DNA from: Deltaproteobacteria bacterium
Lineage (GTDB): Bacteria > Desulfobacterota > WTBG01 > CAIYCZ01 > CAIRTM01
Reading direction: 5' to 3'
DNA length: 38,123 nt
Assembly (NCBI GenBank): GCA_016932595.1
Contig: JAFGCP010000087.1
Location: 1-38,123 of the forward strand
The position numbers and the translations under genes are program-made. The notes beneath the pieces are model-generated. The model was not told the origin of the DNA. It saw only the letters and a program-made list of their open reading frames with translations, and ran no database searches. Below are positions 9,215 to 31,675 of the stretch, piece by piece. Positions within the stretch are counted from its first letter, which is position 1. Every line of letters begins with the position of its first letter.

Positions 9215-9230
9215 TGGCATCGCTTTTGCA
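9215..9230 (+). promoter_or_regulatory. Putative sigma54 (-24/-12) promoter of the glutamate synthase operon
   Basis: TGGCAT-CGCTT-TTGCA; GG (9216-9217) to GC (9228-9229) spacing of 10 nt; about 70 nt upstream of the first CDS. Confidence 0.72.
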
Positions 9231-9302
9231 AAGTGTATTTTTGAAATAAACATATTTTAAGAGCGCCACTGGCGCAGATTCAAGCCGAAGAGATCAGCCA
9301 TT

Positions 9303-11141
9303 ATGAAACTTGAAGACGAGTTCAGAACTAGTGCCGGCGGGATTAAAATTATTGGAAGTGCTGCTGAAAAAAACATGTACAGCCATGATATCGGCGATGT
9401 GCCGCATATCATGACGCAGACTTTTTTTCAAACGCAGCCTGATTTTGTCGTCCAGCCGCAGAGCATAGATGAGATCCAGAAGGTGCTCGCCTTTGCCCAT
9501 GAAAAGAAAATCCCGGTTATACCGCGAGGCGCAGCCTCGTGGGGGTTTGGTGGCGTTATTCCAACACAGGGAGGCATTGTTGTCGACCTTTCGCCGCTGC
9601 GCAAAATCCTTGTGCTCGACAAAGCACACAAGACCGTGACGGTTGAGGCTGGCGCCAGGTGGAGCGATATCGACATACTGGCTAAAAAAGACGACCTGTG
9701 CCTGATGACCTATCCTTCCAGCAAGTTCTCCACCGTTGCCGGCTGGATCGCCACCGGCGGCTACGGCATCAACAGCTACCGCTATGGACACATTGCTAAA
9801 CAGATCCAGTCAATGACCGTGGTCACCCCGGCCGGAGAGGTAAAAAAGTTGACGCCAGCTGACCGGGAATTCGATTTTTTCGTCTCCGGGGAGGGCCAGT
9901 TCGGTATAATTGCCGAAGTGACCCTCAAGCTTCGCGAACTGCCGAAAAACTCCTATGCGCATATTTTTTATTTTGCAACCGACAAGGATGCATTTGATTT
10001 CATAGCCCAGGCAGCCGGGCAGAAAACAGCTGCCAATGTGATCAGATTCATCGACGAGAATCACCTGCGTGAAACCAATGAAATAATGCACGCCAATGTC
10101 TTCAAGGAAAAGGCGGGCGTGCTGGTCGAATTTTCAAATACCGCTGAGGAACAGCAGTTTCTGGACCTTATCAGGCAATTCGGCACCTATGAGCAATCTC
10201 CTGCCTATGCTGCATCCTACTTGTGGAACGAGCGGCTCTTCGGCATGAAAGCAAAACGCCTGGGCCCGACGCTGCTGGCAAGCGAAGTTGTCCTGCCCAT
10301 AGCTGATGCCGCGGCCTTCATTGAGAAGGCTAAAACACTCGGAAGGTATTACGGGACCGAGATCTGTATTGATTCCTATATCCTGGACCAGAGCCGGGCC
10401 CTTATCATGACAACATTTCTCTGCGACTCGCGGAAGCTCAAGTACATGATCCACATGCCGCTTGTTTCCATGCTCACGCAGGCCGCCGTTTCCATGGGCG
10501 CCAAGCCCTACGGCCTGGGGATTTGGAATGCAGCTTTCGTCAACCATTTGTTCAGCTCCGAGCAGCAGGCTGAAATACGGGCCTACAAAGCAAAGACCGA
10601 CCCGAACGGCATCATGAACCCCGGCAAGCACCTTCGGGTTGGGTCGAAGTTCATGAACATTCCGGCGCTGCTGTTCCACCCCATGGTGTTCGGGCTTTCC
10701 ATGCGTTTGCTTATTCTGCTGTCGCCGATAATCGGCCCGATCGCGACCATGCTTTTCGGCAAGGACAAGAAGCTCGACTCCCTTGATCTTGAGCTCAGTA
10801 CGCATGCCTGCGCCAAGTGCGGCAACTGCATGGCCGTATGCCCGGCCTACCTGGTCCTTAAAAACGAGGCAGTCAGCGGCAAGGGTAAAATTGAACTTGC
10901 CAAAAAGCTCATTGCCGGGCAGCCCGTTACGGCCGAGGAGGCGGCAAACGCCTATATGTGCATGCACTGCAGGGCCTGCGAGGAAATCTGCCAAACCAAC
11001 CTCGACCTGATGACGCTCTGGGATGCACTGGAGCGCCGCCTTGAAGCCAATTTCGCCAGGCCGGATGAAAAAATCAAGGAATTTTTAAAAACCATAGATG
11101 CCAGCAAGGAATACTGGGACATGGTCGAGCGGAATTCATAA
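9303..11141 (+). CDS. FAD-binding (GlcD/D-lactate dehydrogenase-type) and 4Fe-4S oxidoreductase, probable electron-input subunit
   Basis: PP-loop-like FAD_binding_4 pattern (IPVIPRGAASWGFGGVIPTQGGIVVDLSPL; VEAGARW; GGYGINSYRYG); C-terminal CAKCGNCMAVCP and CMHCRACEEICQ 4Fe-4S motifs. Confidence 0.88.
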   Translation: MKLEDEFRTSAGGIKIIGSAAEKNMYSHDIGDVPHIMTQTFFQTQPDFVVQPQSIDEIQKVLAFAHEKKIPVIPRGAASWGFGGVIPTQGGIVVDLSPLRKILVLDKAHKTVTVEAGARWSDIDILAKKDDLCLMTYPSSKFSTVAGWIATGGYGINSYRYGHIAKQIQSMTVVTPAGEVKKLTPADREFDFFVSGEGQFGIIAEVTLKLRELPKNSYAHIFYFATDKDAFDFIAQAAGQKTAANVIRFIDENHLRETNEIMHANVFKEKAGVLVEFSNTAEEQQFLDLIRQFGTYEQSPAYAASYLWNERLFGMKAKRLGPTLLASEVVLPIADAAAFIEKAKTLGRYYGTEICIDSYILDQSRALIMTTFLCDSRKLKYMIHMPLVSMLTQAAVSMGAKPYGLGIWNAAFVNHLFSSEQQAEIRAYKAKTDPNGIMNPGKHLRVGSKFMNIPALLFHPMVFGLSMRLLILLSPIIGPIATMLFGKDKKLDSLDLELSTHACAKCGNCMAVCPAYLVLKNEAVSGKGKIELAKKLIAGQPVTAEEAANAYMCMHCRACEEICQTNLDLMTLWDALERRLEANFARPDEKIKEFLKTIDASKEYWDMVERNS

Positions 11142-11146
11142 GAAGC

Positions 11147-11169
11147 AGGGGCGTAGGCCATACGCCCCT
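11147..11169. repeat. REP-like hairpin AGGGGCGTA-GGCCA-TACGCCCCT
   Basis: Perfect 9-bp arms, 5-nt loop, in the gap between two operon genes. Confidence 0.8.
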
Positions 11170-11203
11170 ACACATGATCCTAATCCTATTGAATGTAGTG
11201 CGT

Positions 11204-12601
11204 ATGCCGAAAAAATATCACATTGAAATTAACCCCACGCCCCTGGACCTGAAGCTTGTAGCCAAGTTCAAAATCACCCGGGGCGAAAACTGCATTAACT
11301 GCGGAAAGTGCACCAAGGTCTGCATTTATGAAGCGCACAAGCGCTCTGAGGCTGATATCCGCAAGATTGCCGAACCCTACATGGTGGCGTGCAAAAATTG
11401 CTTCCGATGCATTCAGGAATGCCCGCGCGGCGCATTAGTGAAATCTCTCGATCCCGAGTTCCAGGCCCTGGGCGGGCCGTACTGGAAGCCCGACATGTTC
11501 CTTTCCATCTGGAAGCAGGCCGAAGACGGCAAGGTGCCCGTATCGGGCGCCGGGTACCGCGGTCCTTTTACGGGCCCGGGTTTTGACGGCATGTGGACCG
11601 ACATGTCCGAGATCGTCCGGCCAACGCGCGACGGCATTCACGGACGCGAGTATATTTCGACCGCCGTGGAGCTGGGCAGAAAGCTCAACCACCTCGAGTT
11701 CGACGCCTCGGGCGCCCTTGTTTCGAAGGTTTTCGACGTTGTCAATGTGCCGATTCCGATTATTTTAGACATACCATCATCGGAACTCATCACGCCCAAT
11801 ATCAAGCAGGCAATCGTAGCGGCAGCCAAAAAAATTGATTCCTTCGTCATACTCCCTGCTGAAAACATCACCGATGATGTGCAAAAAAACATGCAGCATA
11901 TTATACCGCTGATGAGCGCCGAGCAGGTCCTTTTCCACGCTGAGCTTATCAGGCATGCACGGGTCATTGCCATCGACTACAGCGATGCTTTGCTGAAAAA
12001 TTTCTGCAGTATACGTGAATCGGTCAGAAATCTGTCCCCTGCTCTGGTCATCGTTCGCATCCCCGCATCATCCGGTATAGAGGAACGGGTTGTTGAGCTT
12101 GTACGGGCAGGTGTTGAAATCGTACAGATCGCCGCAGATTACTGCGGCATGGAAGTACCGGGAGGCCGCTATATCAAGGATGTTATCCGGGCTGTCCATT
12201 TGCGGCTGGTAGATGAGCGGGTACGCGATGAAATCTCGATTATTGCTTCCGGCGGTATTGCCATGGCCGAACATGTTCCCAAAGCCTGTATTTGCGGCGC
12301 TGACCTTACCGCGGTAGGGCTGCCTCTCCTTATCGCCCTGGGAGCGCTCGTGTATCAGGAGCCGGAAAAGAAAATTGTCATGCCCGAGGGTATAGATACA
12401 GTACCGGTAGCCATCGCGCGGCAGCGCATAGTAAATCTCATGGGCGCCTGGCACTCGCAGATTCTTGAAATGATGGGAGCTATGGGCATCCGTGAGGCCA
12501 GACGGCTGCGGGGCGAAACGGGCAGGGCGATATTTTTCGATGAAATCGATAAGGATATTTTTGGTAAACTTTTTCAGAACCAGGAAGCGGCAAGCGTATG
12601 A
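11204..12601 (+). CDS. Ferredoxin-domain protein with degenerate glutamate synthase (GltB central, FMN)-like domain
   Basis: ORF 11174..12601; CINCGKCTKVC, CKNCFRCIQECPRG; retains ISIIASGGIAMAEHVPKACICGAD and GAWHSQILEMMGAMGIREARRLRGETGRAIFF but lacks the 3Fe-4S cysteines and the GGYGGTGAAP loop. Overlaps the next gene by ATGA. Confidence 0.8.
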   Translation: MPKKYHIEINPTPLDLKLVAKFKITRGENCINCGKCTKVCIYEAHKRSEADIRKIAEPYMVACKNCFRCIQECPRGALVKSLDPEFQALGGPYWKPDMFLSIWKQAEDGKVPVSGAGYRGPFTGPGFDGMWTDMSEIVRPTRDGIHGREYISTAVELGRKLNHLEFDASGALVSKVFDVVNVPIPIILDIPSSELITPNIKQAIVAAAKKIDSFVILPAENITDDVQKNMQHIIPLMSAEQVLFHAELIRHARVIAIDYSDALLKNFCSIRESVRNLSPALVIVRIPASSGIEERVVELVRAGVEIVQIAADYCGMEVPGGRYIKDVIRAVHLRLVDERVRDEISIIASGGIAMAEHVPKACICGADLTAVGLPLLIALGALVYQEPEKKIVMPEGIDTVPVAIARQRIVNLMGAWHSQILEMMGAMGIREARRLRGETGRAIFFDEIDKDIFGKLFQNQEAASV

Positions 12602-14079
12602 AACCAGACAGCGTAGTTATAAAACCAATCCCATCGCGGTTCAAGCATCAGGTGCCCAAGTACAAGGTCACCAGGTCTGATGCCTGCATTAACTGCGGCA
12701 TGTGTGCGAAAAGCTGCCCTTACGGGGTGCACGAGCGCATCGAGGGCCACAATAAAATGCGGCCGCCCATCGACTATAAATGCATCGGCTATGAGTGCCG
12801 CAAGAATGACGAGTTTTACTGCGTGTACCGCTGCCCCCGCAAGGCACTGAGCCTGTCACTCAATCCAATGTATGACGCCCTGGGGGACTGCCGCTGGACC
12901 TCGGACATGATTGTTGCAACCTGGATCATGGCCGAGACAGGGTATCCGCCCGAGCGCACGGATCTGGGGTATAATCTCGGCAATTCCGGCGGCGGCTTCG
13001 ACAAGCTGCGCCTGAAGTTCCCGGAAAACCCCGCCAAAGTGAATCGTGAGGAGATTTCAACGGCCATACGCCTGAACCGAAGGGCTGACGGCCGCGCAGA
13101 TGTGGTGATATCGACGCCCGTCTATGGCGGAGGCATGTCCTTCGGCTCGGTGAGCCTTGCGACGATGCTGTCAAAGGCCCGCAATGCAAAAATATGGAAC
13201 ACCTTCACCTGCACCGGCGAAGGCGGGTATCCGGAAATGCTGTATCCCTATGATGATCACGTGATCACCCAGGTCGCCACCGGCCTTTTCGGTGTGCGAG
13301 AGGAAACGATCCAGCGCGTCAAGATCGTTGAATTCAAGTATGCCCAGGGAGCAAAGCCGGGCCTTGGCGGGCATCTGCTCGGCACAAAGAATACCGAAAG
13401 CGTCGCCCGGATGCGCGAGGCTGTTCAGGGCACGCCCCTGTTTTCGCCTTTTCCCTTCCACTCGGTCTACTCCATCGAGGACCACAAAAAGCATATCGAC
13501 TGGATCAAGCAGATGAACCCGAAGGCCCTGGTATCGGTTAAGGTTTCAACGCCCAATGACGTCGACATGGTAGCTGTCGGATCCTATTATGCCGGCGCCC
13601 ACATCATCCACATCGACGGCGGTTACGGAGGTACGGGCGCGGCGCCCGATATCGCGAAAAAAAATATCGCCATGCCCATCGAGTACGCAATCCCGAAGGT
13701 GCACAATTTTCTCAGGGACGAAGGCGCCCGTGATGTGGTGACCCTTATCGCCTCCGGCGGAATACGCACCGCCCATGATCTTGTCAAGGCCATATGTCTC
13801 GGCGCCGACGGCGCGGTCATAGGAACGGCTGAAATGGTAGCTCTTGAGTGCGTCCGCTGCGGGAATTGCGAATCGGGCCGGGGCTGTGCCCGCGGCATCG
13901 CCTCGACTGACTCGGAGCTTGCAGACCTGTTCAATGACGACTGGGCGACTCAGCGACTCACCAACCTGTACCATGCCTGGAACTACCAGCTCGTCGACAT
14001 ATTGCAGCGCATGGGCATGAAAAGCGTCACCGAGCTGGTGGGCCGGACCGACTTGCTCGAGCATGTTGATTATAGTTAA
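12598..14079 (+). CDS. Glutamate synthase, FMN/4Fe-4S subunit (archaeal-type GltB core)
   Basis: CINCGMCAKSCPYG; STPVYGGGMSFGSVS; GEGGYPEM; AKPGLGGHLLGTKN; VSVKVSTPNDVDMVAVGSYYAGAHIIHIDGGYGGTGAAP; CVRCGNCESGRGCARGIAS. Confidence 0.95.
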   Translation: MKPDSVVIKPIPSRFKHQVPKYKVTRSDACINCGMCAKSCPYGVHERIEGHNKMRPPIDYKCIGYECRKNDEFYCVYRCPRKALSLSLNPMYDALGDCRWTSDMIVATWIMAETGYPPERTDLGYNLGNSGGGFDKLRLKFPENPAKVNREEISTAIRLNRRADGRADVVISTPVYGGGMSFGSVSLATMLSKARNAKIWNTFTCTGEGGYPEMLYPYDDHVITQVATGLFGVREETIQRVKIVEFKYAQGAKPGLGGHLLGTKNTESVARMREAVQGTPLFSPFPFHSVYSIEDHKKHIDWIKQMNPKALVSVKVSTPNDVDMVAVGSYYAGAHIIHIDGGYGGTGAAPDIAKKNIAMPIEYAIPKVHNFLRDEGARDVVTLIASGGIRTAHDLVKAICLGADGAVIGTAEMVALECVRCGNCESGRGCARGIASTDSELADLFNDDWATQRLTNLYHAWNYQLVDILQRMGMKSVTELVGRTDLLEHVDYS

Positions 14080-14091
14080 AAATGAATAATG

Positions 14092-14119
14092 GTAGGGGCG
14101 GTTCGCTAACCGCCCCTAC
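14092..14119. repeat. REP-like hairpin GTAGGGGCGGTT-CGCT-AACCGCCCCTAC
   Basis: Perfect 12-bp arms, 4-nt loop; ends 29 nt before the next CDS start. Confidence 0.85.
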
Positions 14120-14148
14120 AGATGAAATTTTATATCGGAGTTCATATA

Positions 14149-16791
14149 ATGAACAGAGCAGAACAAATTCTTGAATCCCGCACAGAGCTGTGCCGCCAGG
14201 TGCCCCCGCTTGCCCGGAACACCGAAGAGGAAGGCGGCTGCGGTGTTACCGGTTTCATCAGCTCCATCCCCGTGACGGGAAAAAATATTTTTGAACCCTC
14301 GGTGCAGATGCACAACAGGGGCAACGGCAAGGGCGGAGGTATCGCTGCCGTTGGCTTCATCCCCGAAGCGCTGGGTGTGTCGCGGCAGGTGCTGGACGAC
14401 GACTATATGCTGCACATCGCGCTGCTTGACGAATCTGCTGCCCCTGCAATCGAACAGCAGTTCATCTTCCCCTGCTTCACCATCGATAAATCGGAAAAGC
14501 TCGAACGCATCGACGACTACCGCAGCATCGGCCTTGAGGTGAAGCCGCCCGAGATCATCCGGTATTTTGTAAGGGTAAAAGCAGACGTGCTTGACGCATT
14601 TATCAGCGACAATGGCCTAACGGCCCTTGACCGCCGCGATGCCGAAGACGAGTTCGTGTACCGCAACAGCTTTAAAATCAACGCGAAATATTATGCCTCC
14701 CTGGGCGAGAAAAAAGCCTTTGTCATGTCCCACGGCCGCAACATGATGATACTGAAAATCGTGGGCTATGCTGAAAACGTGGTGAAGTATTACAAGCTTG
14801 AGGAGTTCAAAGCCCATGCCTGGATCGCCCATCAGCGCTACCCGACCCGCGGCCGCGTGTGGCACCCCGGCGGCTGCCATCCCTTTAGCGCCCTCAATGA
14901 GGCCCTGGTGCACAACGGCGACTTCGCCAACTACCAGTCCGTAAGCGAGTATCTGAAGCAGCGCAATTATATTCCGCTGTTTCTCACCGATACCGAAGAG
15001 GCTGCGCTCATGCTCGACCTGTGGAGCCGCGTGTACAAGTATCCCCTGGAATATCTGATTGAGGCCCTGGCGCCCACATCGGAAATGGATTTTGATCTGC
15101 TGCCTCCTGCTAAGCAAAAGATATATAAAGCCATTCAGACGCATCATGTTGGCGCATCCCCTGACGGCCCCTGGTTTTTTATCATCGCGCGCAATAACAT
15201 AGCCGATAAAGCGCTGCAGCTTATCGGCATAACTGATACGGCCATGCTGCGGCCCCAGGTATTCGCCCTGCAGGAAAGCGGCGATGTGCAGATCGGCCTC
15301 GTGTGCTCGGAAAAGCAGGCAATTGACGCGACCCTCATGTCCCTCGAGCGCGAGGATGCCAGGTTCCGGCCTGTTGCCGACAAGTACTGGAATGCCCGCG
15401 GCGGCAGCTATACCGACGGCGGCTCCTTCATCTTCAGTCTTGTCGACAGCGATAACGGCGCAAAAAAACTCATCTGCACGGATAAGTTCGGAAACAGTAT
15501 CACCACACCCCGTGACCAGCAGATCTGCACCATGCCCTCAAAGGCGACCGATGCTGACGTTCAGGCCGCAGCAGCCAGGTTTGCCCCCTTGTTCCAGGCA
15601 GGGGCCGATGCGGCAGCGGCAGGCGTTTTTTCCTCTATCCGGGACGGGCTGAAATCGTTTTCAGCCGAGACATTCACCTGCAGTATCAAGGCACTTGAAC
15701 ATATCGGCCTGCAGAGCGATGCCAACAAGACCATCGCCATTGAAGCTCTGACCATGCTGAGTGACCGGCGCTATGCTACGGGATCGGTGAAGCGCGGTTC
15801 CCTGTTGCATGTGCTCAAAGCAAGCCTTGACGCGATATTCGCCGCTACACCGGGCATAACCGAATCCTCCGGCTCGAAATACAGTCATATCGATTTCGAT
15901 ACCCGGAAACACCTCCGCGCACCCCTCCGGGATGATGCGGTGCTGGTCATTGACGCCGAGAAATTCGAGCCCGAGGGCGACCTGTGCGATGCTGTCCTGA
16001 TTGTGGCGGCCTACAAGCTGGGGTGGCGGCGGTTTATTGTTTATAAATACCGCGGCCAGCGCTTTACGGGCTGCGGCTTCGGCGCAGCCACCGAAGGCGT
16101 GCGCATCGACGTGTACGGAGCATCGGGTGATTATCTCGCCTCGGGCATAGACGGCATGGAAATTCATGTGCACGGCAATGCCCAGGACCAGCTCTGCCAG
16201 ATCATGAAGGCCGGCAAGCTCGTCGTGTACGGCGATGTGGGCCAGACTTTCATGTACGGCGCCAAGGGCGGTACAGCCTATATTCTGGGGAATGCAGCGG
16301 GCCGGCCCCTGATCAATGCCGTGGGCAAACCCCGCGTTGTGATTAACGGCACAGCCCTTGATTATCTGGCCGAATCATTCATGGCCGGCGATCCGCTGAG
16401 CGGCGGTGGCTTTGTCGTACTCAACGGCATTGGTTTTGACGATCGGGACGGCAGTATCAGGGAATACGATTCCCCCTACCCGGGCTCGAATATTTTCTCC
16501 CTGGCCTCCGGCGGCGCCATTTATGTCCGTGATCCGCGGGGCAGGCTGGTCGACGAGCAACTCAACGGCGGCCAGTATTTCGAGCTCACGGATGCCGACT
16601 GGCAACTGATCAAACCCTATCTTGAGGAAAATGAAAAGCTGTTCGGCATCGCTGTCGATGAACTGCTGACCGTGGACGGGAAGAAACTCCAACCCGCGCA
16701 GGTGTACCGCAAAATAGGACCAAAAAAAGCGGCTCCGGAAGTGGTTAAAATTGACAGCGGGCTTGAAGAGTCATGCACGTGTGAAAAATGA
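14149..16791 (+). CDS. Glutamate synthase class II glutamine amidotransferase domain fused to GXGXG (GltB C-terminal) domain
   Basis: ORF 14122..16791; start MNRAEQ at 14149 (GGAG upstream). GGCGVTGFIS (Cys nucleophile after about 30-aa propeptide), HPGGCHPFSALNEALVHNGDFANY, then GXGXG repeats (GIDGMEIHVHGNAQDQLC..GKLVVYGDVGQTFMYGAKGGTAYILG). Confidence 0.92.
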   Translation: MNRAEQILESRTELCRQVPPLARNTEEEGGCGVTGFISSIPVTGKNIFEPSVQMHNRGNGKGGGIAAVGFIPEALGVSRQVLDDDYMLHIALLDESAAPAIEQQFIFPCFTIDKSEKLERIDDYRSIGLEVKPPEIIRYFVRVKADVLDAFISDNGLTALDRRDAEDEFVYRNSFKINAKYYASLGEKKAFVMSHGRNMMILKIVGYAENVVKYYKLEEFKAHAWIAHQRYPTRGRVWHPGGCHPFSALNEALVHNGDFANYQSVSEYLKQRNYIPLFLTDTEEAALMLDLWSRVYKYPLEYLIEALAPTSEMDFDLLPPAKQKIYKAIQTHHVGASPDGPWFFIIARNNIADKALQLIGITDTAMLRPQVFALQESGDVQIGLVCSEKQAIDATLMSLEREDARFRPVADKYWNARGGSYTDGGSFIFSLVDSDNGAKKLICTDKFGNSITTPRDQQICTMPSKATDADVQAAAARFAPLFQAGADAAAAGVFSSIRDGLKSFSAETFTCSIKALEHIGLQSDANKTIAIEALTMLSDRRYATGSVKRGSLLHVLKASLDAIFAATPGITESSGSKYSHIDFDTRKHLRAPLRDDAVLVIDAEKFEPEGDLCDAVLIVAAYKLGWRRFIVYKYRGQRFTGCGFGAATEGVRIDVYGASGDYLASGIDGMEIHVHGNAQDQLCQIMKAGKLVVYGDVGQTFMYGAKGGTAYILGNAAGRPLINAVGKPRVVINGTALDYLAESFMAGDPLSGGGFVVLNGIGFDDRDGSIREYDSPYPGSNIFSLASGGAIYVRDPRGRLVDEQLNGGQYFELTDADWQLIKPYLEENEKLFGIAVDELLTVDGKKLQPAQVYRKIGPKKAAPEVVKIDSGLEESCTCEK

Positions 16792-16826
16792 TACAGGCTG
16801 TTAGCCTCATCGATTACTGACTGGAT

Positions 16827-16856
16827 AAAGCCGATCATAATCGATCGGCTTTTTTA
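16827..16856 (+). terminator. Intrinsic terminator of the glutamate synthase operon
   Basis: GCCGATC-ATAATC-GATCGGC followed by TTTTTT. Confidence 0.88.
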
Positions 16857-16939: not shown

Positions 16940-19564
16940 ATGAAAACGTCGATGTACCCAACGACAGGAATTTCCGGCTTTGATGCGGTAATCGACCATC
17001 TGCGGCTCGGTGATAATGTGGTCTGGCAGGTTGATACTATCGATGACTATGCCGGCTTTGTAACCCCTTTTGTCCAGCGGGCCATTGCAGACCGCAAAAA
17101 AATTATTTATGTAAAATTTGCCCGCCACCGGGTTTTGGTTGAGCCATCGGCAGAAGTAACCTGCTATGAGCTTGACGCCAAGCTCGGGTTTGAGTCGTTT
17201 TCAACGCAGGTTCATGGAATTGTTGCACGGGAAGGTATCGGCGCCTATTATGTTTTTGACTGCCTGTCAGACCTCCTGTCAGCCTGGGCAACGGATCTGA
17301 TGATTGGCAATTTTTTCAGGATAACCTGCCCGTATCTCTTTCAGCTCGATACCATTGCCTATTTCGGCCTCATCCGCAGCCGTCATTCCTATAAAACGGT
17401 AGCCCGCATCAGGGAAACCACCCAGCTTCTGATGGATGTCTATAATACGGGCAGCGACACCTATGTGCATCCCCTGAAGGTGCTTGGGAGATATTCGCCG
17501 ACAATGTTTCTGCCGCATAAAAAAACGGGCGAATCCTTCATACCGGTCACCAGCAGTATCGATTTGGCAAAGCTTACCTCCTTTATAACCGGCAAAAGCA
17601 CTGTTCAGACACGACGGCACCTTGACTCCTGGGACCGTTTGTTTATGGAAGTGCAGGATCTTCTGCAACGTCACAGCGAGGATACTGACAGGCAAAAGGC
17701 ACTGGAGCTGCTGTGCTTGGTCATGATAGGCCGGGAAAAACGCATTCTGGATCTTGCAAAAAAGACACTCACCCTGCAGGATCTGCTTGCCATCAAGGAG
17801 CGCATTATCGGCACCGGCTATATCGGCGGCAAGGCAGCCGGCATGCTGATAGCGCGCAAAATTCTTCTTCAGGACAGCTCACGGGACTGGCGGGTGCTGC
17901 TGGAGCCCCATGATTCTTTTTTTATCGGCTCCGATGTTTTCTATACCTATATCGTCTCAAATGGCTGGTGGCCGCTTCTGATGGAGCACAAGACACAGGA
18001 GGGGTATTTTGAAGCCGCCCGTGTTCTCAAGGAAAAAATGCTGGAGGGGGCGTTTCCCGAGGAGATCGAGGACCAGTTCTGGGAACTGATCGAGTATTTC
18101 GGCCAGTCGCCCATCATCATCCGCTCCAGCAGCCTTCTTGAGGATGCCTTCGGCAATGCCTTTGCCGGAAAATATGAAAGCCTGTTCTGCGTCAATCAGG
18201 GCTCGCCCGAGCAGCGCTTCAAACGCTTTAAAGACTATGTCCGGCAGGTTTTTGCCAGCACCATGGGCGAGGATGCCTTGACCTATAGAAAGCAGCGCGG
18301 CCTTGCCGAGCATGATGAGCAGATGGCGCTGCTTGTGCAGCGGGTATCAGGCTCGCACCATAACGGATTTTTTTTTCCGGATCTGGCCGGTGTCGGCATT
18401 TCCTATAATGCCTTTGTCTGGAAACCGGATATGGATCCCAAGGCAGGCATGCTGCGGCTGGTGCTGGGTCTGGGAACACGAGCCGTCAACCGCGTGGAAA
18501 ATGATTATCCCCGGATCGTGCCTCTTGACAATCCGCTTCTGCGGGCCCATGCGGGCCTGAGCGATACGAGGAAATACTCGCAGCGGTATGTCGATGTTCT
18601 GAATGTGGCGCACAACGAGCTTGAAACCGTTGCGCTTGACTCTGTGGTCGAGAGAGCTGCGGAAATTGATTTTGACCGCTTTGGCATGCGCGATACGCAG
18701 GCCATTGAGCGCATGCGGGAGCGCGGCGTTTTCGATAAAGATGCTTGGCTTTTGACCTTTGATCCGCTGCTGTCAGATTGCTCGTTTCCCGCTGTCATGC
18801 GTGATATGCTGAAAAAGCTCGAGGATAAGTATGACTATCCCGTTGATACGGAATTTACCGTTAATTTTGACTCGAACGGGCTGTTTCACATCAATCTCGT
18901 GCAGTGCCGGCCCCTGCAGACCAAAGGCGTACAGGCCCGCGTGCAGCTGCCGGAGGCAGTGCCTTCAGAGGATATGCTGTTTTCTTCGACAGGCAATTTC
19001 ATGGGCAGCAATGTCATGCTGCAGATCAGCCGGGTCATTTATGTGGATCCTGAAGGGTACATCAGGCTGAATCTTTCCGAGAAATATGAAGTTGCACGGA
19101 ATATCGGCAGGCTCAACCGCCAGATTGAAGACAGGGGCCTGATGCAGGTCATGCTCATGGGGCCCGGCAGGTGGGGGACCTCAACTCCGGCGCTGGGGGT
19201 GCCGGTGCGGTTTGCCGAAATAAACAATATTTCAGTCATGGTTGAAATTGAGCACATGGGTGAGATGCTGATGCCAGAGCTTTCATTCGGCACGCATTTT
19301 TTTCAGGACCTCGTTGAAACAGATATTTTTTATGCCGCCTTATTTCTACGCAATCAGCAGGCCAGCCTGAATACCGCCTGGCTCGGAGGTATGGCAAACC
19401 GGCTCACGGAACTTCTGCCGGAAAGTGCAAAATACGAGAGCATTGTGCGGGTGTTTGATACGGCCGCAAGAAAACTCTGCCTTATGTCGGATATATTTTC
19501 TCAAAAGGTGCTGTGCTTCAGTTCAAACGATGGGGAGCAGGGAAGGAATAATCAATGCAAATGA
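16940..19564 (+). CDS. PEP/pyruvate-binding (PPDK N-terminal ATP-grasp) protein with N-terminal KaiC-like degenerate domain
   Basis: N-term TGISGFDAVIDHLRLGDNVVWQVD..RKKIIYVKFARH; PPDK_N motifs GGKAAGMLIARKIL, IIIRSSSLLEDAFGNAFAGKYES, VNFDSNGLFHINLVQCRPLQ. Confidence 0.8.
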   Translation: MKTSMYPTTGISGFDAVIDHLRLGDNVVWQVDTIDDYAGFVTPFVQRAIADRKKIIYVKFARHRVLVEPSAEVTCYELDAKLGFESFSTQVHGIVAREGIGAYYVFDCLSDLLSAWATDLMIGNFFRITCPYLFQLDTIAYFGLIRSRHSYKTVARIRETTQLLMDVYNTGSDTYVHPLKVLGRYSPTMFLPHKKTGESFIPVTSSIDLAKLTSFITGKSTVQTRRHLDSWDRLFMEVQDLLQRHSEDTDRQKALELLCLVMIGREKRILDLAKKTLTLQDLLAIKERIIGTGYIGGKAAGMLIARKILLQDSSRDWRVLLEPHDSFFIGSDVFYTYIVSNGWWPLLMEHKTQEGYFEAARVLKEKMLEGAFPEEIEDQFWELIEYFGQSPIIIRSSSLLEDAFGNAFAGKYESLFCVNQGSPEQRFKRFKDYVRQVFASTMGEDALTYRKQRGLAEHDEQMALLVQRVSGSHHNGFFFPDLAGVGISYNAFVWKPDMDPKAGMLRLVLGLGTRAVNRVENDYPRIVPLDNPLLRAHAGLSDTRKYSQRYVDVLNVAHNELETVALDSVVERAAEIDFDRFGMRDTQAIERMRERGVFDKDAWLLTFDPLLSDCSFPAVMRDMLKKLEDKYDYPVDTEFTVNFDSNGLFHINLVQCRPLQTKGVQARVQLPEAVPSEDMLFSSTGNFMGSNVMLQISRVIYVDPEGYIRLNLSEKYEVARNIGRLNRQIEDRGLMQVMLMGPGRWGTSTPALGVPVRFAEINNISVMVEIEHMGEMLMPELSFGTHFFQDLVETDIFYAALFLRNQQASLNTAWLGGMANRLTELLPESAKYESIVRVFDTAARKLCLMSDIFSQKVLCFSSNDGEQGRNNQCK

Positions 19565-19651: not shown

Positions 19652-21220
19652 TTACTTGTATTTTTTTGTTTCTATGCCAAGGCTGAGTATCCGGTAGTGC
19701 AGAATGCGCTGCGTGGTCTGCAGGTAGCGGGCCGTGGAGGCAACATTCCCCCGGTGCTTTTTCAGCGCATCCACAATCAGCTCCCGCTCGTAGGAGCTCA
19801 CCAGTGTTGTCAGCGGCGCGCCGTCAGCAGGCAGCAGGGCCGTATTGGTTTCATCGGATGTCTGGAGCGACGGCGGAAGGCAGTAGCTGTGAATGACATC
19901 GTCGGAACTGGTGAGTATGGAGCGTTCTATGCAGTTTTCAAGCTCCCGGACATTGCCCGGCCAGTGATAGGCCATCATCATGTTGATGGCGGGGGTTGAT
20001 ATCCGTTTTATGGTTTTGCCGTAAACCTTATTGTATTTTTGCAGAAAGTGATCGGCAAGAAGAATGATGTCTGAGCGGCGCTCGCGAAGAGGCGGCATAT
20101 AGATGGGGAATACGTTAAGCCGGTAAAAAAGATCGTCGCGGAACTGTCCGCTCTCAATGGCCTGCTCAAGGTTTGCAGAAGTGGCGGCGATGATGCGGAT
20201 GTTGACCATGATGCTGTCGGTTCCGCCAACGCGCTCAAATATTTTTTCCTGCAGCACCCGCAGCAGGCGAACCTGTACAGCCGGGGATATATCGCCGATT
20301 TCATCAAGAAAGAGAGTCCCACCGTTTGCCATCTCAAAGCGGCCCTTTCGCTGCTGCATGGCGCCGGTAAACGAGCCTTTTTCATGGCCGAACAGCTCGC
20401 TTTCTATGAGGTTTTCAGGAAGCGCCGCGCAGTTGACCGCAATAAAAGGGTTGTTTCGCCGCGAGCTTGAAAAGTGAATCGCACGGGCAATCATTTCCTT
20501 GCCCGTGCCGGACTCGCCCCGGACAAGCACGGTTGCCGTGCTGTCGGCGACCTGGGCTATCTGGAGATATATCTGCTGCATAACGCTGCAGCGCCCGACG
20601 ATATTGTTAGGCTGGTAGAGTGCTCCGAGCTGTTGCCGCAGCTGACGGTTTTCCGCCATCAGGCTTTCCCTCTCGGCAACCTGCTCGCGTATCTGCGCGA
20701 CTGCTTCTGCAAGAATATCTGCAACCAGGGTCAGAAAGTTCAGGTCGCTGCGCAATATGTTCAGATCATCTTTGGGCCGGTCGATACTGATAGTGCCGAT
20801 GACATCGTGATTATGCAAAACCGGTACGCAAAGAAATGCCATGGGCACATCTTTTTTACGCGATCTTGTCTTGTTCAGAAAATAGGGATCAGTGGTGAAG
20901 TCTTCGATGAGAGCCGGTTTTTTTGTCTGCGCCACGCGGCCGATTATGCCTTCTCCGAGCTTGTACTTGCCGCGTTTTTTTTCTTCTGCGGAAAGGCCTT
21001 TTGATGCTTCAATGACCAGGACATCGGTATCAGGCACGCGCAGGGTAAGAATGCCCCGCGACATGCCCATTTCCGTATCCATGATGCCCAGTGCATCTTC
21101 AAGCAGGGCTGAAATATTATTCTGATGAAATGTGGCGTGGGAAATTTTTGCAAGGAGTGCAAGCTGCTGTGCAGAGCGCGCATTGATTGTTTTTATGCTT
21201 TCCGGTTCTTTTTGTTTCAT
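19652..21220 (-). CDS. Sigma54-dependent Fis family activator (GAF-AAA+-HTH, NifA/NtrC class)
   Basis: ORF 19652..21352, start [10 protein letters not shown] at 21220. Walker [50 protein letters not shown]-terminal Fis-type HTH. Confidence 0.95.
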
Positions 21221-21281
21221 ATGATACGCTGGTATCTTTCTGGTTTTTAATAAACATATTTGTTGTTTAGTCCTAAGTATA

Positions 21282-21297
21282 ATAACAAAATTGTTAT
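21282..21297. promoter_or_regulatory. Inverted repeat ATAACAA-AA-TTGTTAT, candidate operator in the regulator-glnN divergent region
   Basis: 7-bp arms with 2-nt centre, about 60 nt upstream of the regulator start. Confidence 0.4.
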
Positions 21298-21439
21298 ATT
21301 GTGTCAAATTAAAAGTCAACAATACGTGCTCCTGTTGAGTAATTAAAAACATCTTGATTTATTTTTTTAATGATAAAACAGTATATTAGACAATAAAGTC
21401 TTCCCTGTGCGGGCACTGCAGACGCACTGACTAAGGATT

Positions 21440-21455
21440 TGGCACTGTTCTTGTA
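21440..21455 (+). promoter_or_regulatory. Putative sigma54 (-24/-12) promoter of the glutamine synthetase gene
   Basis: TGGCAC-TGTTC-TTGTA; GG to G(T) spacing of 10 nt; -12 GC replaced by GT. Confidence 0.65.
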
Positions 21456-21574: not shown

Positions 21575-23665
21575 ATGACTACTTTTGATTGTACCAAGCT
21601 GTTTGCGGAAGATGTTTTTACCATAAAAACCATGCGCAACTATCTTTCCGTGCATGCCTACGATTCTATCATGGATACGATAATTCGCAGGGCATCACTT
21701 GATCCGAAAATTGCCGATGAAGTTGCCGATGCCATGAAGAACTGGGCAATGGAAAAGGGCGCAACGCATTTCACACACTGGTTTCAGCCTTTGACGGGAA
21801 CAACCGCTGAAAAGCATGATGCTTTTATCGACCCTGATCGCGAAGGCGGCTGCGTCATGCATTTTTCCGGCAAGGAACTCATTCAAGGCGAGCCCGATGC
21901 ATCAAGTTTTCCATCAGGGGGTCTCCGTGCGACCTTTGAAGCCCGGGGCTATACGGCCTGGGACCCCACCAGCCCTGCCTTTATAAAACGCGGCGCAAAG
22001 GGGTCGACCCTCTGCATACCCACTGTTTTCTGCTCCTACAGCGGTGAGGCTCTTGATGAAAAAGCTCCGCTGCTGCGCTCGATGGACGTGCTGTCAAAGC
22101 AGGTGTGCCGGCTCGCCAAACTGTTCGGCATGGATGTGGACGGAGGTTCGCGCGTTTATCCGACCCTAGGACCGGAGCAGGAGTACTTTCTCATTGACAA
22201 ACAGTTCTATGAAAGCCGTCTTGATCTCATGCAGACCGGCCGTACCCTGTTTGGCCGCCAGCCTGCCAAGCACCAGCAGATGGAAGATCATTATTTCGGA
22301 GCCATAAAGCCCCGTATTATGGCTTTTATGGAAGATTTAGACCGCGAGTTGTGGCGTTTGGGGATTCCTTCAAAGACCCGCCACAATGAAGTGTGCCCTG
22401 CGCAGTTTGAAATCGCACCGGTATTTGAGGAATTGAGCATTGCCGTTGATCATAATATGCAGACGATGGAAGTACTGCGGAATGTGGCTGATGAGCACGG
22501 GCTGGTGTGCCTGCTGCATGAAAAGCCTTTTGCCGGTGTGAATGGTTCGGGCAAGCACAATAACTGGTCCCTTGTCGACCCGACTGGCCGCAACTGGCTG
22601 ACCCCGGGTGATAATCCCCATGCCAATGCCGAGTTTCTCACCATGATCTGCATTCTCATGAAGGCAGTTGATACCAATGCCGCACTCCTTCGGGCGGCAG
22701 TGGCATCAGCAGGCAATGACCACCGGCTTGGGGCAAATGAGGCGCCGCCGGCAATCATTTCAATTTTCCTCGGAGAGCAGCTCTATGATGTGATTGAGCA
22801 GATCGAGAAAGGCAAGGCAAAAAGCTCTAAAAACGGCGGCGTCATTCGGATCGGGGTTACCTCGCTGCCGCAGTTTCCCCGCGATGCAACTGACCGCAAC
22901 CGCACGTCGCCCTTTGCATTCACCGGCAACAAGTTCGAGTTCCGCGCAGTCGGATCGAGCCATAACTGCTCTGCGGCAAATACCGTACTCAATACGATTG
23001 TTGCCGATGCAATCGACGAGGTGTGCACCGAGCTTGAATCGGCAGTCAAAGCTAAAAAGAATTTCAATGAAACTCTGCAGGGCATACTGCAGAAAATAGT
23101 TAAGAAGCATAAACGCATTCTTTTCAATGGGGATAATTACACAGCCCAATGGCGTGCGGAAGCAGCACGCAGGGGGCTTCCAAATATTACGACTACGCCG
23201 GAAGCGCTGAAAGCATTTGCCGCTCCCGCAACAGTAAAGCTGTTTGAAAAGCACGGCGTGCTCACGCAGCGAGAGCTCGAATCACGGTATAATGCCCTTT
23301 TAGAAAACTATGAAAAGACCATTATTCTTGAGGCGAACTGTGCGGTTACCATTGCACGCACCATGATTGTGCCGGCTGCGGTCAGCTATCAGCGTGAGCT
23401 TGCAATAACTATTGCCGATACCGCTAAAATGCTGAAGGCCGTAAAACTTACTGAAAGCAGCGAACTTTTAAAAACGGTGACCCTCCATATTGAGGCAACA
23501 CTCAAGGGTTGCAAAGCTGTGGAGGCAGCAGTCAAAACAGGCCATCCTGTAAAGATACTGCCTGCCATGGCAAAGCTGCGGACAGCTGTGGACGAGCTCG
23601 AAGGTCTGCTGCCGCGGGATCAGTGGCCTCTTGCCACCTATGCGGAAATGATGTTCATCAATTAA
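21575..23665 (+). CDS. glnN: Glutamine synthetase type III
   Basis: GSIII hallmarks: [70 protein letters not shown]; strong SD AAGGAGG. Confidence 0.97.
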
Positions 23666-23673
23666 TCCTGCAG

Positions 23674-23701
23674 GCGGGAGGCCCTTCTCCCGCTTTTTTT
23701 T
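23674..23701 (+). terminator. Intrinsic terminator after glutamine synthetase
   Basis: GCGGGAG-GCCCTT-CTCCCGC-TTTTTTTT. Confidence 0.93.
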
Positions 23702-23772
23702 ATTTTTTGCAATATGCATGGTGGCGCAGACTCACAAAATGTTTTATTAACTATGCAGCAGAAAGGGGTAGT

Positions 23773-25398
23773 GTGAAGCCAAAATTTATTTTTGTAACAG
23801 GCGGCGTACTGTCGGCCCTGGGCAAAGGCATTGCCGCGGCTTCAATGGGGGCATTGCTGGAGGCCCGGGGGCTCAAAGTTACTTTTTTAAAGTTTGATCC
23901 GTATATCAACGTCGATCCCGGCACCATGAATCCCTTTCAGCATGGAGAGGTTTTTGTAACCGACGAGGGCAATGAAACAGACCTTGACCTGGGGCATTAC
24001 GAGCGCTTCACATTTGCCAGAATGGGCTCAAAAAATAATTATACGACAGGCCAGATTTATGAGCGGGTTATCGGCAAAGAGCGCAAAGGTGAATATCTTG
24101 GAGCTACCGTTCAGGTCATTCCTCATATCACCAATGAGATCAAAGATAAAATATGGCTTGTGGCGCAGGGGGTTGACATCGCCATTATCGAAATCGGCGG
24201 TACGGTTGGTGATATTGAATCACTCCCCTTTCTTGAGGCTATCAGACAGTTTAAAAATGATGCAGGCCGTGAAAATGTCCTCTATGTTCATTTGACTTAT
24301 GTTCCCTATTTGGGCGCTGCCGGGCAACTCAAGACCAAGCCTACGCAGCACAGCACCAAGGAGCTGCTTCAGATAGGCATACAGCCCGATATTCTGCTGT
24401 GCCGGTCAGACCGGCTTCTGCCCCATGATATCAAGGATAAGATAGCCCTTTTCTGCAATCTTTCCCGGGATGCAGTCATAACGGCAAAGGATGTTGAATC
24501 AATCTATGAGGTGCCGCTGCTGCTGCATCAGGAAGGTCTTGATGAAAAAATCATAGAGATTCTGAATATCTGGACCCGTGCTCCGCATCTTGCGACATGG
24601 GAAGAGGTGCTGCAAAAACTGAAAAACCCCGAGCATATGACTACCATTGCCATTGTTGGCAAATATATAGACCTTGAGGATTCATACAAAAGTCTTAACG
24701 AAGCGCTTATTCATGGCGGCATTGCCAACAGCGCCCGCGTTCATTTAAAGTTTGTCGACTCCGAAACCATAACAGCAGATAATGTTGCCGATATACTTAA
24801 GGATGCAAATGGAATTCTGGTGCCGGGAGGTTTTGGTGACCGCGGCATTCCCGGCAAGCTGGAAGCCATCCGATATGCCCGTGAGCAGAACAAGCCGTAT
24901 TTCGGCATCTGTCTTGGCATGCAGTTGTGCGTTATTGAATTTGCCCGCAATGTCTGCGGTATTAAGGATGCCGATAGCACTGAGTTCAATAAGGATACCC
25001 CGAGCCCCATCATTTTTCTTTTGAAAGAGTGGTTTGATTATCAGAAACAGACAAAGCAGGTGCGGGATGAACAGTTTTGCTACGGTGCAACCATGCGGCT
25101 TGGAGCCTTTCCCTGCGGCCTGACAAGCCCTTCTAAAGCGTTTGAAGCCTATAAAATAAAAAAAATATCAGAGCGGCATCGGCATCGTTACGAATTTAAC
25201 AACACCTTTCTCGATGAGCTGGAGAAAAACGGCATGAGAGTTACCGGCATGTGCCCTGATGCCGATTTGGTGGAGATTGTCGAAATACCCGATCATCCAT
25301 GGTTTCTGGGCTGCCAGTTTCATCCTGAATTCAAGTCGCGGCCGCATGACCCCCATCCTCTGTTTTCAGCATTTATCGCCGCTGCGCTTAAAAACTGA
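23773..25398 (+). CDS. pyrG: CTP synthase
   Basis: GTG start ([19 protein letters not shown]); [17 protein letters not shown]; GATase [15 protein letters not shown] and [10 protein letters not shown]. Upstream part of the 23509 ORF overlaps glnN and is not coding. Confidence 0.97.
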
Positions 25399-25498
25399 GA
25401 GGGTTTCCACGGTGGTGCCGTGTGGAGCTGACAATGGCTTTACCGTGGTCAATCAGGCCACTGTGTGTGTATAAACAAATATTGCGATTTTCAAATAT

Positions 25499-25524
25499 GC
25501 TGTGAGCCCATATGCGCTCACAGC
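25499..25524 (+). promoter_or_regulatory. Hairpin GCTGTGAGC-CCATATGC-GCTCACAGC in the purF leader
   Basis: Perfect 9-bp stem, 8-nt loop, 16 nt before the purF start. Confidence 0.55.
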
Positions 25525-25540
25525 GGTAAAGCGGGTATCT

Positions 25541-26938
25541 ATGGGTAGTGAAATAAAGGAGTTTTGCGGACTTTTCGGTGTGTACGGCGTAGCTGAAGCA
25601 GCCCCCCTCATCTACCAGGGGCTTTTCGCCCTGCAGCATCGCGGGCAGGAAGGGGCTGGAATTGTCGTCAGCAATGGCGAAAAGATTAAATCGGTCAAGG
25701 GCCTTGGTCTTGTCGGGGAGGTATTCTCAAAACAGCCTATCTGCGATCTGAGCGGCAAAATCGGCATCGGCCATGTGCGCTATTCCACAACCGGTTCTAC
25801 GAGAATACAGAATGTGCAGCCCCTTGTTGCCGAATGCGCCGACGGAATCTGGGCTATCGCCCATAACGGCAATCTGGTCAATGCCACCATGCTGCGCAGA
25901 ATGTACCAGGAGTCGGGATCGATTTTTCAGACCAGTACGGACAGCGAAGTGCTTGTGCATATCCTTGCCGACCCCATGTTCCGTAACCGGCCCCGCCGTG
26001 TTGAGCGCGCCCTTGGAGAGCTGAAAGGCGCTTTTTCTTTTCTGTTAATGACGAAAGACAGCATTATGGCTGCGCGCGATCCGCTCGGATTCAGGCCCCT
26101 GTCAATCGGCAAGCTTGGCGAAGCTTTTATCTTCACCAGCGAAACCTGCGCGCTGCCGCTGATCGGCGCCGCCTATATACGCGATGTGCTTCCCGGCGAG
26201 CTGGTCACCGTAACTGCATCCGGGCTCACAAGCAGCATGTTCTGCGAAAAGCGCGATCACTATGGCCAGTGTATTTTTGAGCACATATATTTTGCCCATC
26301 CGGACAGCCATGTTTTTGGCAAAAATGTCCATGAGGTGCGCATGGCCTATGGGAGGCGTCTTGCGCAGGAGCATCCCGTCGATGCCGATATGGTCATTCC
26401 CATACCCGACAGCGGCAACTCTGCAGCTCTCGGGTATTCACGCGCAAGCGGCATACCTCTTGATTTCGGCTTTATACGCAACCATTATGTCGGCCGCACA
26501 TTTATCATGCCCGAGGACAAGCAGAGAAAGTACTCCGCCGACATGAAGCTTGCGGTGCTGCCTGATGTGATTAACGGCAAGCGCGTTATTGCCGTGGATG
26601 ACTCTATCGTACGCGGCAATACCATGGCCAAACGTATCAAAATGCTCCGCGAAGCCGGCGCTAAAGAGGTGCATGTGCGCATATCATGCCCCCCTGTCAA
26701 AAACCCCTGCTTTTATGGTATAGACTTCCCTACCTCTGAAGAGCTGGTGGCTTCCTCCCGTACCGTTGAAGAAATCAGGCAACTCATGGGCGCCGACTCT
26801 CTCGGCTATGTAAGCCTTGAGGGAATACTGTCGCCCTTTGATAATCCGCAGGATTTTTGCACGGCCTGCTTCAGCGGCGCCTATCCTGCAGCAATCGAGA
26901 GCTTTGAAGGCAAGAAAGCCCTAGAAAAACATAGTTGA
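25541..26938 (+). CDS. purF: Amidophosphoribosyltransferase (Fe-S, propeptide type)
   Basis: ORF 25502..26938, start MGSEIKEF|CGLFGVYG; LFALQHRGQEGAGI; VIAVDDSIVRGNTM; CTACFSG near C-terminus. Confidence 0.96.
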   Translation: MGSEIKEFCGLFGVYGVAEAAPLIYQGLFALQHRGQEGAGIVVSNGEKIKSVKGLGLVGEVFSKQPICDLSGKIGIGHVRYSTTGSTRIQNVQPLVAECADGIWAIAHNGNLVNATMLRRMYQESGSIFQTSTDSEVLVHILADPMFRNRPRRVERALGELKGAFSFLLMTKDSIMAARDPLGFRPLSIGKLGEAFIFTSETCALPLIGAAYIRDVLPGELVTVTASGLTSSMFCEKRDHYGQCIFEHIYFAHPDSHVFGKNVHEVRMAYGRRLAQEHPVDADMVIPIPDSGNSAALGYSRASGIPLDFGFIRNHYVGRTFIMPEDKQRKYSADMKLAVLPDVINGKRVIAVDDSIVRGNTMAKRIKMLREAGAKEVHVRISCPPVKNPCFYGIDFPTSEELVASSRTVEEIRQLMGADSLGYVSLEGILSPFDNPQDFCTACFSGAYPAAIESFEGKKALEKHS

Positions 26939-27057
26939 ATTGTTTCAATTAGTTTGATTAGTTATATTGGTTGAACTGATTGGATTTTTTGAGATTGGGT
27001 TAAAGTTTTTAACCAACAAAACCAATTGAACAAATAAAACATATTAAACAGTTTATT

Positions 27058-30000: not shown

Positions 30001-30330
30001 TGCACCGTACTGCGCGATAATGGCGTCAACAGCAATGCCATGTTCCGTGTTTCCGACGGCAGGCCCAATGTTATCGATCTTGTTGAAGAAAAGAATGTAA
30101 GCTGGATCATAAATACGCCATCAACCGGAGCCAGCCCTAAATTTGATGAAGTCAAGATCAGGGCTCATGCCGTGCTGCGCGGCATACCTATTACGACAAC
30201 ACTTGACGGTCTGCGTGCCGCCATTCAGGGCCTTGAGAGTCTGAGCACTTTCAGCCAGATGGAGGTGTGCAGCCTGCAGGAATATCACCGCCACGCGCCG
30301 CAGATTAAGATCGTGAAGCAGGAGAGGTAG
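27058..30330 (+). CDS. carB: Carbamoyl-phosphate synthase large subunit
   Basis: [23 protein letters not shown], internally duplicated ATP-grasp halves, MGS-like C-terminus ([13 protein letters not shown]). Confidence 0.98.
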
Positions 30331-30349
30331 CAGTTCGACCCGATAAAAT

Positions 30350-30490
30350 GTAGACTGGGCAAAGCGGAGCGTGCCCAGCAAATTTAATACTGCCTTGATT
30401 GGCCAAAATACTTGTTGGGCACGCTCCGCTTTGCCCAACCTACGACTATTGAACAAATCGGTGGGTTCCGCTTCGCTGCACCCACCCTAC
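30350..30490. repeat. Inverted pair of TGGGCAAAGCGGAGCGTGCCCA REP-like units plus a separate GGTGGGT..ACCCACC unit
   Basis: 22-nt perfect arms 30356-30377 / 30416-30437; third palindrome 30460-30486. Confidence 0.88.
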
Positions 30491-30517
30491 AAAAACACAA
30501 TTAAAAAAAACATTACC

Positions 30518-31675
30518 ATGGACACAAAATACAACTGGAAAGAAAAGCGGGAGAAGAGGGCGTTTCTGGCCCTTGCCGATGGTACGGTTTACCGGGGACA
30601 CTCTGTGGGTGCTTTGAAAGACTGCCTGGGCGAGGTTGTGTTCAATACGGGGATGACCGGGTATCAGGAAATACTCTCCGATCCTTCTTACAACGGGCAG
30701 ATCGTCACAATGACCTATACCGAAATGGGCAATTACGGTGTGACCATGCAGGACATGGAATCCCGCGCCTGTTTCGCCAACGGCTTTATCGTGCACCAGC
30801 TGAATGAGCCCAGCAGTTGGCGTGGCGAAATGTCGCTGCGTGATTTTCTCATAAGAAACAGTATACCTGCTCTTGCAGGCATCGATACACGGGCTCTTAC
30901 CAGCAAACTGCGGGATACGGGAACGCTGCGAGGCTATATTTCCGTTGAGCAGAAGGCCGGTGAGCAAGAGGCGATACAGAAGGCCAAAGAGTGGATTGGC
31001 CTAGACGGGCAGGATTATGCCAGCAGAGTTTCCTGTACAGCGCCTTATGAATGGGATGCTGATGGCAAGCTGACCGCTGCCTGGGGGATTTCAGCAGAGC
31101 TTCCGACGGCAGATCTCAAGATCGTTGCCTATGATTTTGGAATCAAGTGGAACATCCTGCGGCGCATGCGCCTTGCGGGCATGAATGTTACCGTGGTGCC
31201 TGCGCAGACTCCTGCTGATAAGGTGCTCGCTATGAAGCCCGATGGCGTATTTTATTCAAATGGCCCGGCTGACCCGGCAGGCGTAACCTATGCCATCGAT
31301 ACTATGAAAAGTATGATAGGCAAGGTTCCTGTCATGGGAATTTGCCTTGGCCATCAGATAATGGGAATAGCCCTGGGCGGGAAAACCTACCGTTTGAAAT
31401 TCGGCCATCATGGCTGCAATCAGCCGGTAAAGGATTTAAAAACCGGGAAGGTAGAAATAACGTCTCAGAATCATAATTTTGCCGTTGATATTGATTCTCT
31501 GGATCGATCAAGAATTGAAGTGACCCATATCAACCTGAATGATCAGACCACTGAGGGCATTGAGCATAAGCACGAGCCCATGTTCTCCATCCAGTACCAT
31601 CCCGAGGCAGCACCGGGTCCTCATGATTCTTCGTATTTGTTCGGCAGGTTCCGTGAACTGATAGCAAAGGCTTAA
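30518..31675 (+). CDS. carA: Carbamoyl-phosphate synthase small subunit
   Basis: ORF 30371..31675, real start [22 protein letters not shown] at 30518; [43 protein letters not shown]. Confidence 0.97.

Follow-up and report, generated by a model that had tools for sequence, protein, structure and literature searches.

A predicted four-subunit glutamate synthase of anaerobes with two alternative electron-entry modules

When ammonia is scarce, nitrogen enters metabolism mainly through glutamate synthase (GOGAT), for which the described reductants are NAD(P)H, ferredoxin and, putatively, F420H2. The enzyme is known in NADPH, NADH and ferredoxin forms, with split ORFs in archaea (PMC8097209), and a putative F420 glutamate synthase with FrhB has been noted in ANME archaea (PMC9012536). 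The locus analysed here raises the question of how electrons reach a glutamate synthase core whose operon has a FAD/iron-sulfur protein at its head and no GltD.

The operon and its parts

In the window, which is the whole analysed stretch of 38,123 nucleotides (contig JAFGCP010000087.1), four tandem genes of the same direction lie between a sigma54-type promoter (9215) and an intrinsic terminator (16830-16855). The features are as follows:

9215-9230, + strand: sigma54-type promoter TGGCATCGCTTTTGCA (GG-N10-GC), 88 bp 5' of the FAD gene
9303-11141, + strand: FAD/2x[4Fe-4S] VAO-type flavoprotein, proposed electron-entry subunit (Pfam, fold, linkage and fusion)
11204-12601, + strand: FMNp, degenerate glutamate synthase barrel joined to a ferredoxin domain, proposed electron adaptor (Pfam, profile alignment, tree)
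12598-14079, + strand: GltBc, ferredoxin domain plus intact FMN glutamate synthase domain (Pfam, conserved catalytic segments)
14149-16791, + strand: GAT, class II glutamine amidotransferase fused to a GXGXG domain (PF13522, PF01493, conserved motifs)
16830-16855, + strand: intrinsic terminator GCCGATCATAATCGATCGGC followed by T6 (sequence and fold)
19652-21352, - strand: GAF-AAA-Fis sigma54 activator, possible regulator (Pfam)
21575-23665, + strand: type III glutamine synthetase, functional neighbour (Pfam)

The promoter, the FAD/4Fe-4S protein, the ferredoxin-FMN-like paralogue, the ferredoxin-FMN core, the terminator and the absence of any GltD gene from the window all agree with a preliminary description of this DNA; the GATase II-GXGXG protein that it named is likewise present, but its amidotransferase proved to be a divergent class II domain. 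The FMNp and GAT frames are open from 11174 and 14122, and we take 11204 and 14149 as their likely starts because homologues begin there. The ATG of GltBc overlaps the stop codon of FMNp (ATGA at 12598-12601), and the terminator is a GCCGATC..GATCGGC hairpin preceding the T6 run. Two of the operon gaps (11145-11171 and 14092-14119) hold GTAGGGGC..GCCCCTAC palindromes, a dispersed REP-like element with about 15 sites in the genome.

GltBc carries an unambiguous Glu_synthase domain (PF01645, 7e-88) and Fer4 with two 4Fe-4S motifs, and its catalytic segments are conserved in the alignment of homologues; a ferredoxin domain on the FMN subunit, with no NAD(P)H module, is the arrangement of ferredoxin-dependent and archaeal-type enzymes. 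GAT joins an amidotransferase domain (PF13522) to a GXGXG domain (PF01493, 9e-13), so that between them the two proteins hold the FMN synthase and GXGXG domains typical of glutamate synthases. The GAT motifs EGGCGVTGF, HQRYPT.GRVWHP, HNGDFANY and TDTE are conserved in 85 homologues and supply the catalytic Cys and oxyanion residues of a class II amidotransferase, from which a leader of about 30 residues must be removed. The GAT profile found no match in a canonical GltB; being a divergent class II domain fused to GXGXG, GAT is therefore not simply a piece of a split bacterial GltB.

The four genes belong together as one unit, since relatives encode them as single chains and the FAD gene keeps to the core. 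In each of the genomes G060, G095 and G042, one protein of about 2,530 aa covers all four window proteins, arranged as in the operon, and Pfam recognises in that of G060 the domains FAD, Fer4, Glu_synthase, GATase and GXGXG; in G023, a 1,924-aa FAD-FMNp-GltBc protein accompanies a separate GAT gene (Pfam domains checked). Among 147 relatives, nine FAD homologues, counting the window's own, score above 340 bits, and every one of them sits next to the core or is fused to it; the next-best homologues score 204 bits and below. This co-conservation and these fusions support the earlier proposal of a GltD-less, four-component glutamate synthase which electrons would enter through the FAD/Fe-S subunit, and a four-gene complex with that input role may be considered well supported by the comparison of genomes.

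We also looked for the missing partner elsewhere. No canonical GATase_2 GOGAT was found in 10 of the 11 genomes searched, and in G053 a weak 24-bit GATase_2 match fell at that genome's own FMNp locus. As GltD-like matches, the source genome has a protein of 721 aa bearing a 2Fe-2S domain and a 141-aa GltD/NfnB-like fragment on contig C47; the absence of GltD from this MAG counts for little, because it is 76% complete. The full-length GltD-like proteins of the four closest FAD-type relatives are by sequence NfnB, beside or fused to NfnA, and so are not GltD partners; NfnB was thus rejected as a hidden GltD. The refuting conditions set in the preliminary description, a GltD homologue partnering the FMN subunit or a FAD gene not co-conserved with the GOGAT genes, thus did not overturn the four-component reading. 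Two other Glu_synthase matches in the source genome, on C323 and C260, were dismissed by sequence as a nitronate monooxygenase-like protein and IMP dehydrogenase. Glutamate dehydrogenase is present in relatives, for which GOGAT is therefore not the sole route to glutamate.

Two input modules and the FMNp paralogue

A scan of GTDB genomes gave more than 550 relatives of FMNp, the best 80 of which were combined with 40 loci from relatives into a sample of 120 loci, and the 4.5 kb upstream of FMNp were searched for input modules in every reading frame. In this sample, which favours close relatives of the window and contains some genomes twice, 49 loci carry the FAD gene, 65 carry FlpD/MvhD and/or MetV/MetF, none carries both and six carry neither, four of these six sitting at contig starts. 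The exclusion holds in the loci with at least 2.5 kb of room (FAD 42, FlpD/MetV/MetF 47, both 0, neither 2). FlpD (PF02662), MetV (PF12225) and MetF (PF02219) were recognised by Pfam in one representative locus of the second form and by phmmer in the remaining ones; FlpD occurs there alone or with MetV and/or MetF, MetV/MetF being methylene-tetrahydrofolate reductase. FlpD-MetV-MetF stands directly upstream of the GOGAT core in L046, L047, L061, L131, L137 and others, and in such loci methylene-THF reductase may be coupled directly to the synthesis of glutamate. At L137, a canonical GltB of 1,527 aa (11446-16026) directly follows the FlpD-MetV-MetF-type operon, so both kinds of GOGAT can coexist. 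Hosts of the FAD type, among the best 80 of the more than 550 relatives, include Syntrophaceae/Smithella, Dehalococcoidia, ANME-1, Methanocellales and Thermoplasmata, besides others.

The FMNp tree (109 rows after removal of six probable duplicates, with some genomes perhaps still doubled) parts the two forms with a single module change at support 99. The GltBc tree needs three changes against one, on weak branches, and the co-divergence with the module is therefore clean for FMNp only. The mutual exclusion in the loci, taken with the one-change FMNp tree, points to a real and widespread glutamate synthase variant with modular electron entry, its core taking one of two mutually exclusive modules. 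The second module on the same core was not part of the preliminary description and makes the finding much broader.

FMNp itself matches Glu_synthase weakly (31.7 bits) and Fer4, with two 4Fe-4S motifs, and aligns with GltBc over nearly its full length (profile E 2e-97). Relative to the GltBc profile, the long segment around EFKYAQGAKPGLGGHLLG..FSPFPFHSVYS is missing from FMNp, as is the GGTGAAP loop, and it should make no glutamate. A block peculiar to FMNp and almost invariant, GAGY.GPF.G.GFD.MWTDMSEIVRPTRDGIHGREYI.T, lies in a stretch of about 37 residues (11546-11656; residues 115-151 counted from the start at 11204) that is kept across bacteria and archaea and lost in the fused form. In the AlphaFold model of FMNp alone (pLDDT 74), the block is poorly ordered, which would fit an interface. 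A role as electron adaptor is suggested by where FMNp stands, between module and core, by the eight Cys of its ferredoxin domain and by its co-divergence with the module. Of 46 FAD-type loci, 34 have lost another, C-terminal Cys motif that nearly all FlpD-type loci retain; its loss was rejected as a mark of every FAD-type locus, given that the other 12, mostly archaeal, keep the motif. FMNp also resembles the central domain of canonical GltB weakly, and the synthase domain more strongly; to call it the counterpart of the central domain would be speculation.

The FAD subunit and the source of electrons

The FAD protein (612 aa) contains FAD_binding_4 (E 3.5e-35), FAD-oxidase_C (4e-14) and Fer4_8 (3.3e-9), that is, the fold of the hydroxyacid dehydrogenase family, and eight Cys for two [4Fe-4S] clusters are present in 46/46 sequences. 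The preliminary description had considered a hydroxyacid (D-lactate, glycolate or 2-hydroxyglutarate), besides ferredoxin or a quinone, as electron source, and the model (pLDDT 84) finds D-lactate dehydrogenases, LctD and alkyl-DHAP synthase as its structural matches. However, the GHxGDGN and EHGxG metal/hydroxyacid motifs of D-lactate and glycolate dehydrogenases are found in none of the 46 sequences. In place of the Glu-His pair, Pro (45/46) and Tyr (46/46) stand in a conserved PYGxGxWN-like site whose Gly and Trp are kept in all sequences and whose Asn in 45; at the first metal His position, 21 sequences, the window's included, have Tyr and another 21 have His. With the motifs lost, hydroxyacid oxidation in the known way is unlikely. 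The Trp/Arg of LctD and D-LDH have retained counterparts in Trp308 (45/46) and Arg311 (46/46), which still allows for an organic acid as donor.

From the parts and their linkage we infer a complex, its activity and a path for the electrons. The overall reaction would be 2-oxoglutarate + glutamine + 2 e- -> 2 glutamate: GAT would hydrolyse glutamine, the ammonia would travel to the FMN site of GltBc, and the reduced FMN there would make glutamate. Electrons would enter through the FAD/2x[4Fe-4S] subunit, not GltD, and pass along a chain of clusters through FMNp, as a catalytically dead synthase paralogue, to GltBc; elsewhere, FlpD/MvhD, with or without MetV and MetF, would occupy the position of the FAD subunit on the same core. 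We consider it probable that the products of the four genes form a single glutamate synthase complex under nitrogen regulation, with the FAD subunit as input and FMNp as adaptor. For the donor, we guess at reduced ferredoxin or another one-electron protein carrier, and not a 2-hydroxyacid or NADPH. Ferredoxin alone is a tentative best guess, based on the breadth of the hosts and on the window's operon, which has no NAD(P)H module and in which no redox gene beyond the four was recognised; FAD-type hosts are expected to share ferredoxin.

Several other readings compete with this one. It is possible, if rather unlikely, that the FAD subunit is served by a dedicated protein encoded elsewhere, such as ETF or an NADH- or F420-dependent oxidoreductase. 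LctD, its best sequence match in the PDB, was solved with EtfAB (7qh2), and the PYGxGxWN pocket is conserved yet holds no recognised substrate motif; on the other hand, the window's operon showed no recognisable ETF, FrhB or NAD(P)H module, and Pfam scans of its four proteins and of neighbours in the window gave no match to FrhB. Neither ETF nor F420 is expected in every FAD-type host. A true 2-hydroxyacid dehydrogenase, coupling the oxidation of D-lactate, glycolate or 2-hydroxyglutarate to glutamate formation, is quite improbable: the structural matches, the Trp/Arg pair and the His kept in some sequences speak for it, but the lost motifs, with Tyr and Pro-Tyr at the metal positions in the window, and a range of hosts from syntrophs to ANME-1 archaea argue against one special hydroxyacid.

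The FAD subunit might also serve another process and merely share the operon with GltBc, which would then be an ordinary ferredoxin-dependent GOGAT. Archaeal-type GOGAT enzymes do have a two-cluster ferredoxin domain on the FMN subunit and a split architecture, and GltBc has its own such domain; nevertheless, the single-chain fusions, the 9/9 linkage in relatives and the co-divergence of FMNp and module make this highly improbable. Returning to the complex with modular input, we consider as a doubtful extension that GltBc-GAT-FMNp is a general "plug-in" core of anaerobes, driven directly by methyl-tetrahydrofolate oxidation in the MetF-MetV-FlpD branch and, in the branch with the VAO-type flavoprotein and its new PYGxGxWN active site, by another donor, possibly through two-donor electron confurcation.

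Regulation, known systems and significance

A pattern search found TGGCATCGCTTTTGCA to be the only perfect match to the sigma54 consensus in the whole window, and a site with one mismatch at 21440-21455, 5' of the type III glutamine synthetase. Near-perfect sites (10-11 of 12 points, a score that 0-3 of 300 shuffles attain) precede the FAD gene in nearly all Syntrophales-like loci. They were found neither in the Dehalococcoidia loci nor in nearly all archaeal ones, and sigma54 is not expected in Dehalococcoidia or archaea. The source genome has rpoN, the GAF-AAA-Fis activator is often near FAD-type operons, and glutamine synthetase often precedes either input module in the loci compared. Together with the glutamine-related genes nearby, this context fits nitrogen regulation of the operon. 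The cluster 3' of the operon (21575-31675) comprises GSIII, CTP synthase, PurF-like, CarB and CarA genes. Between operon and activator lies the gene for an 874-aa protein (16940-19564) that combines an N-terminal part of unassigned fold with an ATP-grasp domain of the PEP-synthase type (PPDK_N); it is conserved just 3' of many FAD-type operons, and shorter relatives occur near some FlpD-type ones.

The predicted enzyme shares with bacterial NADPH-GOGAT (GltB/GltD; Azospirillum, PMC8097209) the FMN synthase, class II amidotransferase and GXGXG domains and a FAD entry subunit with two [4Fe-4S] clusters that feeds the FMN subunit. However, the entry subunit is a VAO-type flavoprotein here and adrenodoxin-reductase-like in GltD, and in place of a single GltB with GATase_2 and central domain, the synthase, adaptor paralogue and GATase-GXGXG protein are separate, with a very divergent amidotransferase. 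Archaeal-type or ferredoxin-dependent GOGAT has the same ferredoxin-domain FMN subunit and split architecture, whereas the degenerate FMNp and a dedicated FAD or FlpD/MetV/MetF input are extra here. The putative F420-dependent GOGAT of ANME (FrhB10-linked; PMC9012536) likewise couples a core to an alternative, lineage-specific input subunit, which there is FrhB with F420H2; no FrhB is present here. The FAD-linked oxidases of the LctD/GlcD/D-LDH family share the FAD_binding_4 and FAD-oxidase_C fold, but here the metal/hydroxyacid site is lost and two [4Fe-4S] clusters are added without a CCG domain. The MetFV-HdrABC-MvhD complex of Moorella, as far as its discussion in PMC9012536 goes, has the MetV, MetF and MvhD/FlpD of the sister form's module, the GOGAT core of that form replacing HdrABC. 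A literature search, with most subscription papers outside its scope, found no paper pairing a FAD-linked oxidase or FlpD-MetV-MetF with glutamate synthase.

In many anaerobic bacteria and archaea, glutamate thus appears to be the product of a four-subunit enzyme with a flavin/iron-sulfur input instead of an NADPH subunit, and this unusual input makes the powering of their nitrogen assimilation a new and testable question. A widespread form with two mutually exclusive modules would change the picture of how syntrophs, sulfate reducers, Dehalococcoidia and ANME archaea assimilate nitrogen and balance their redox state, and it would open a link from C1 metabolism to glutamate synthesis to direct testing.
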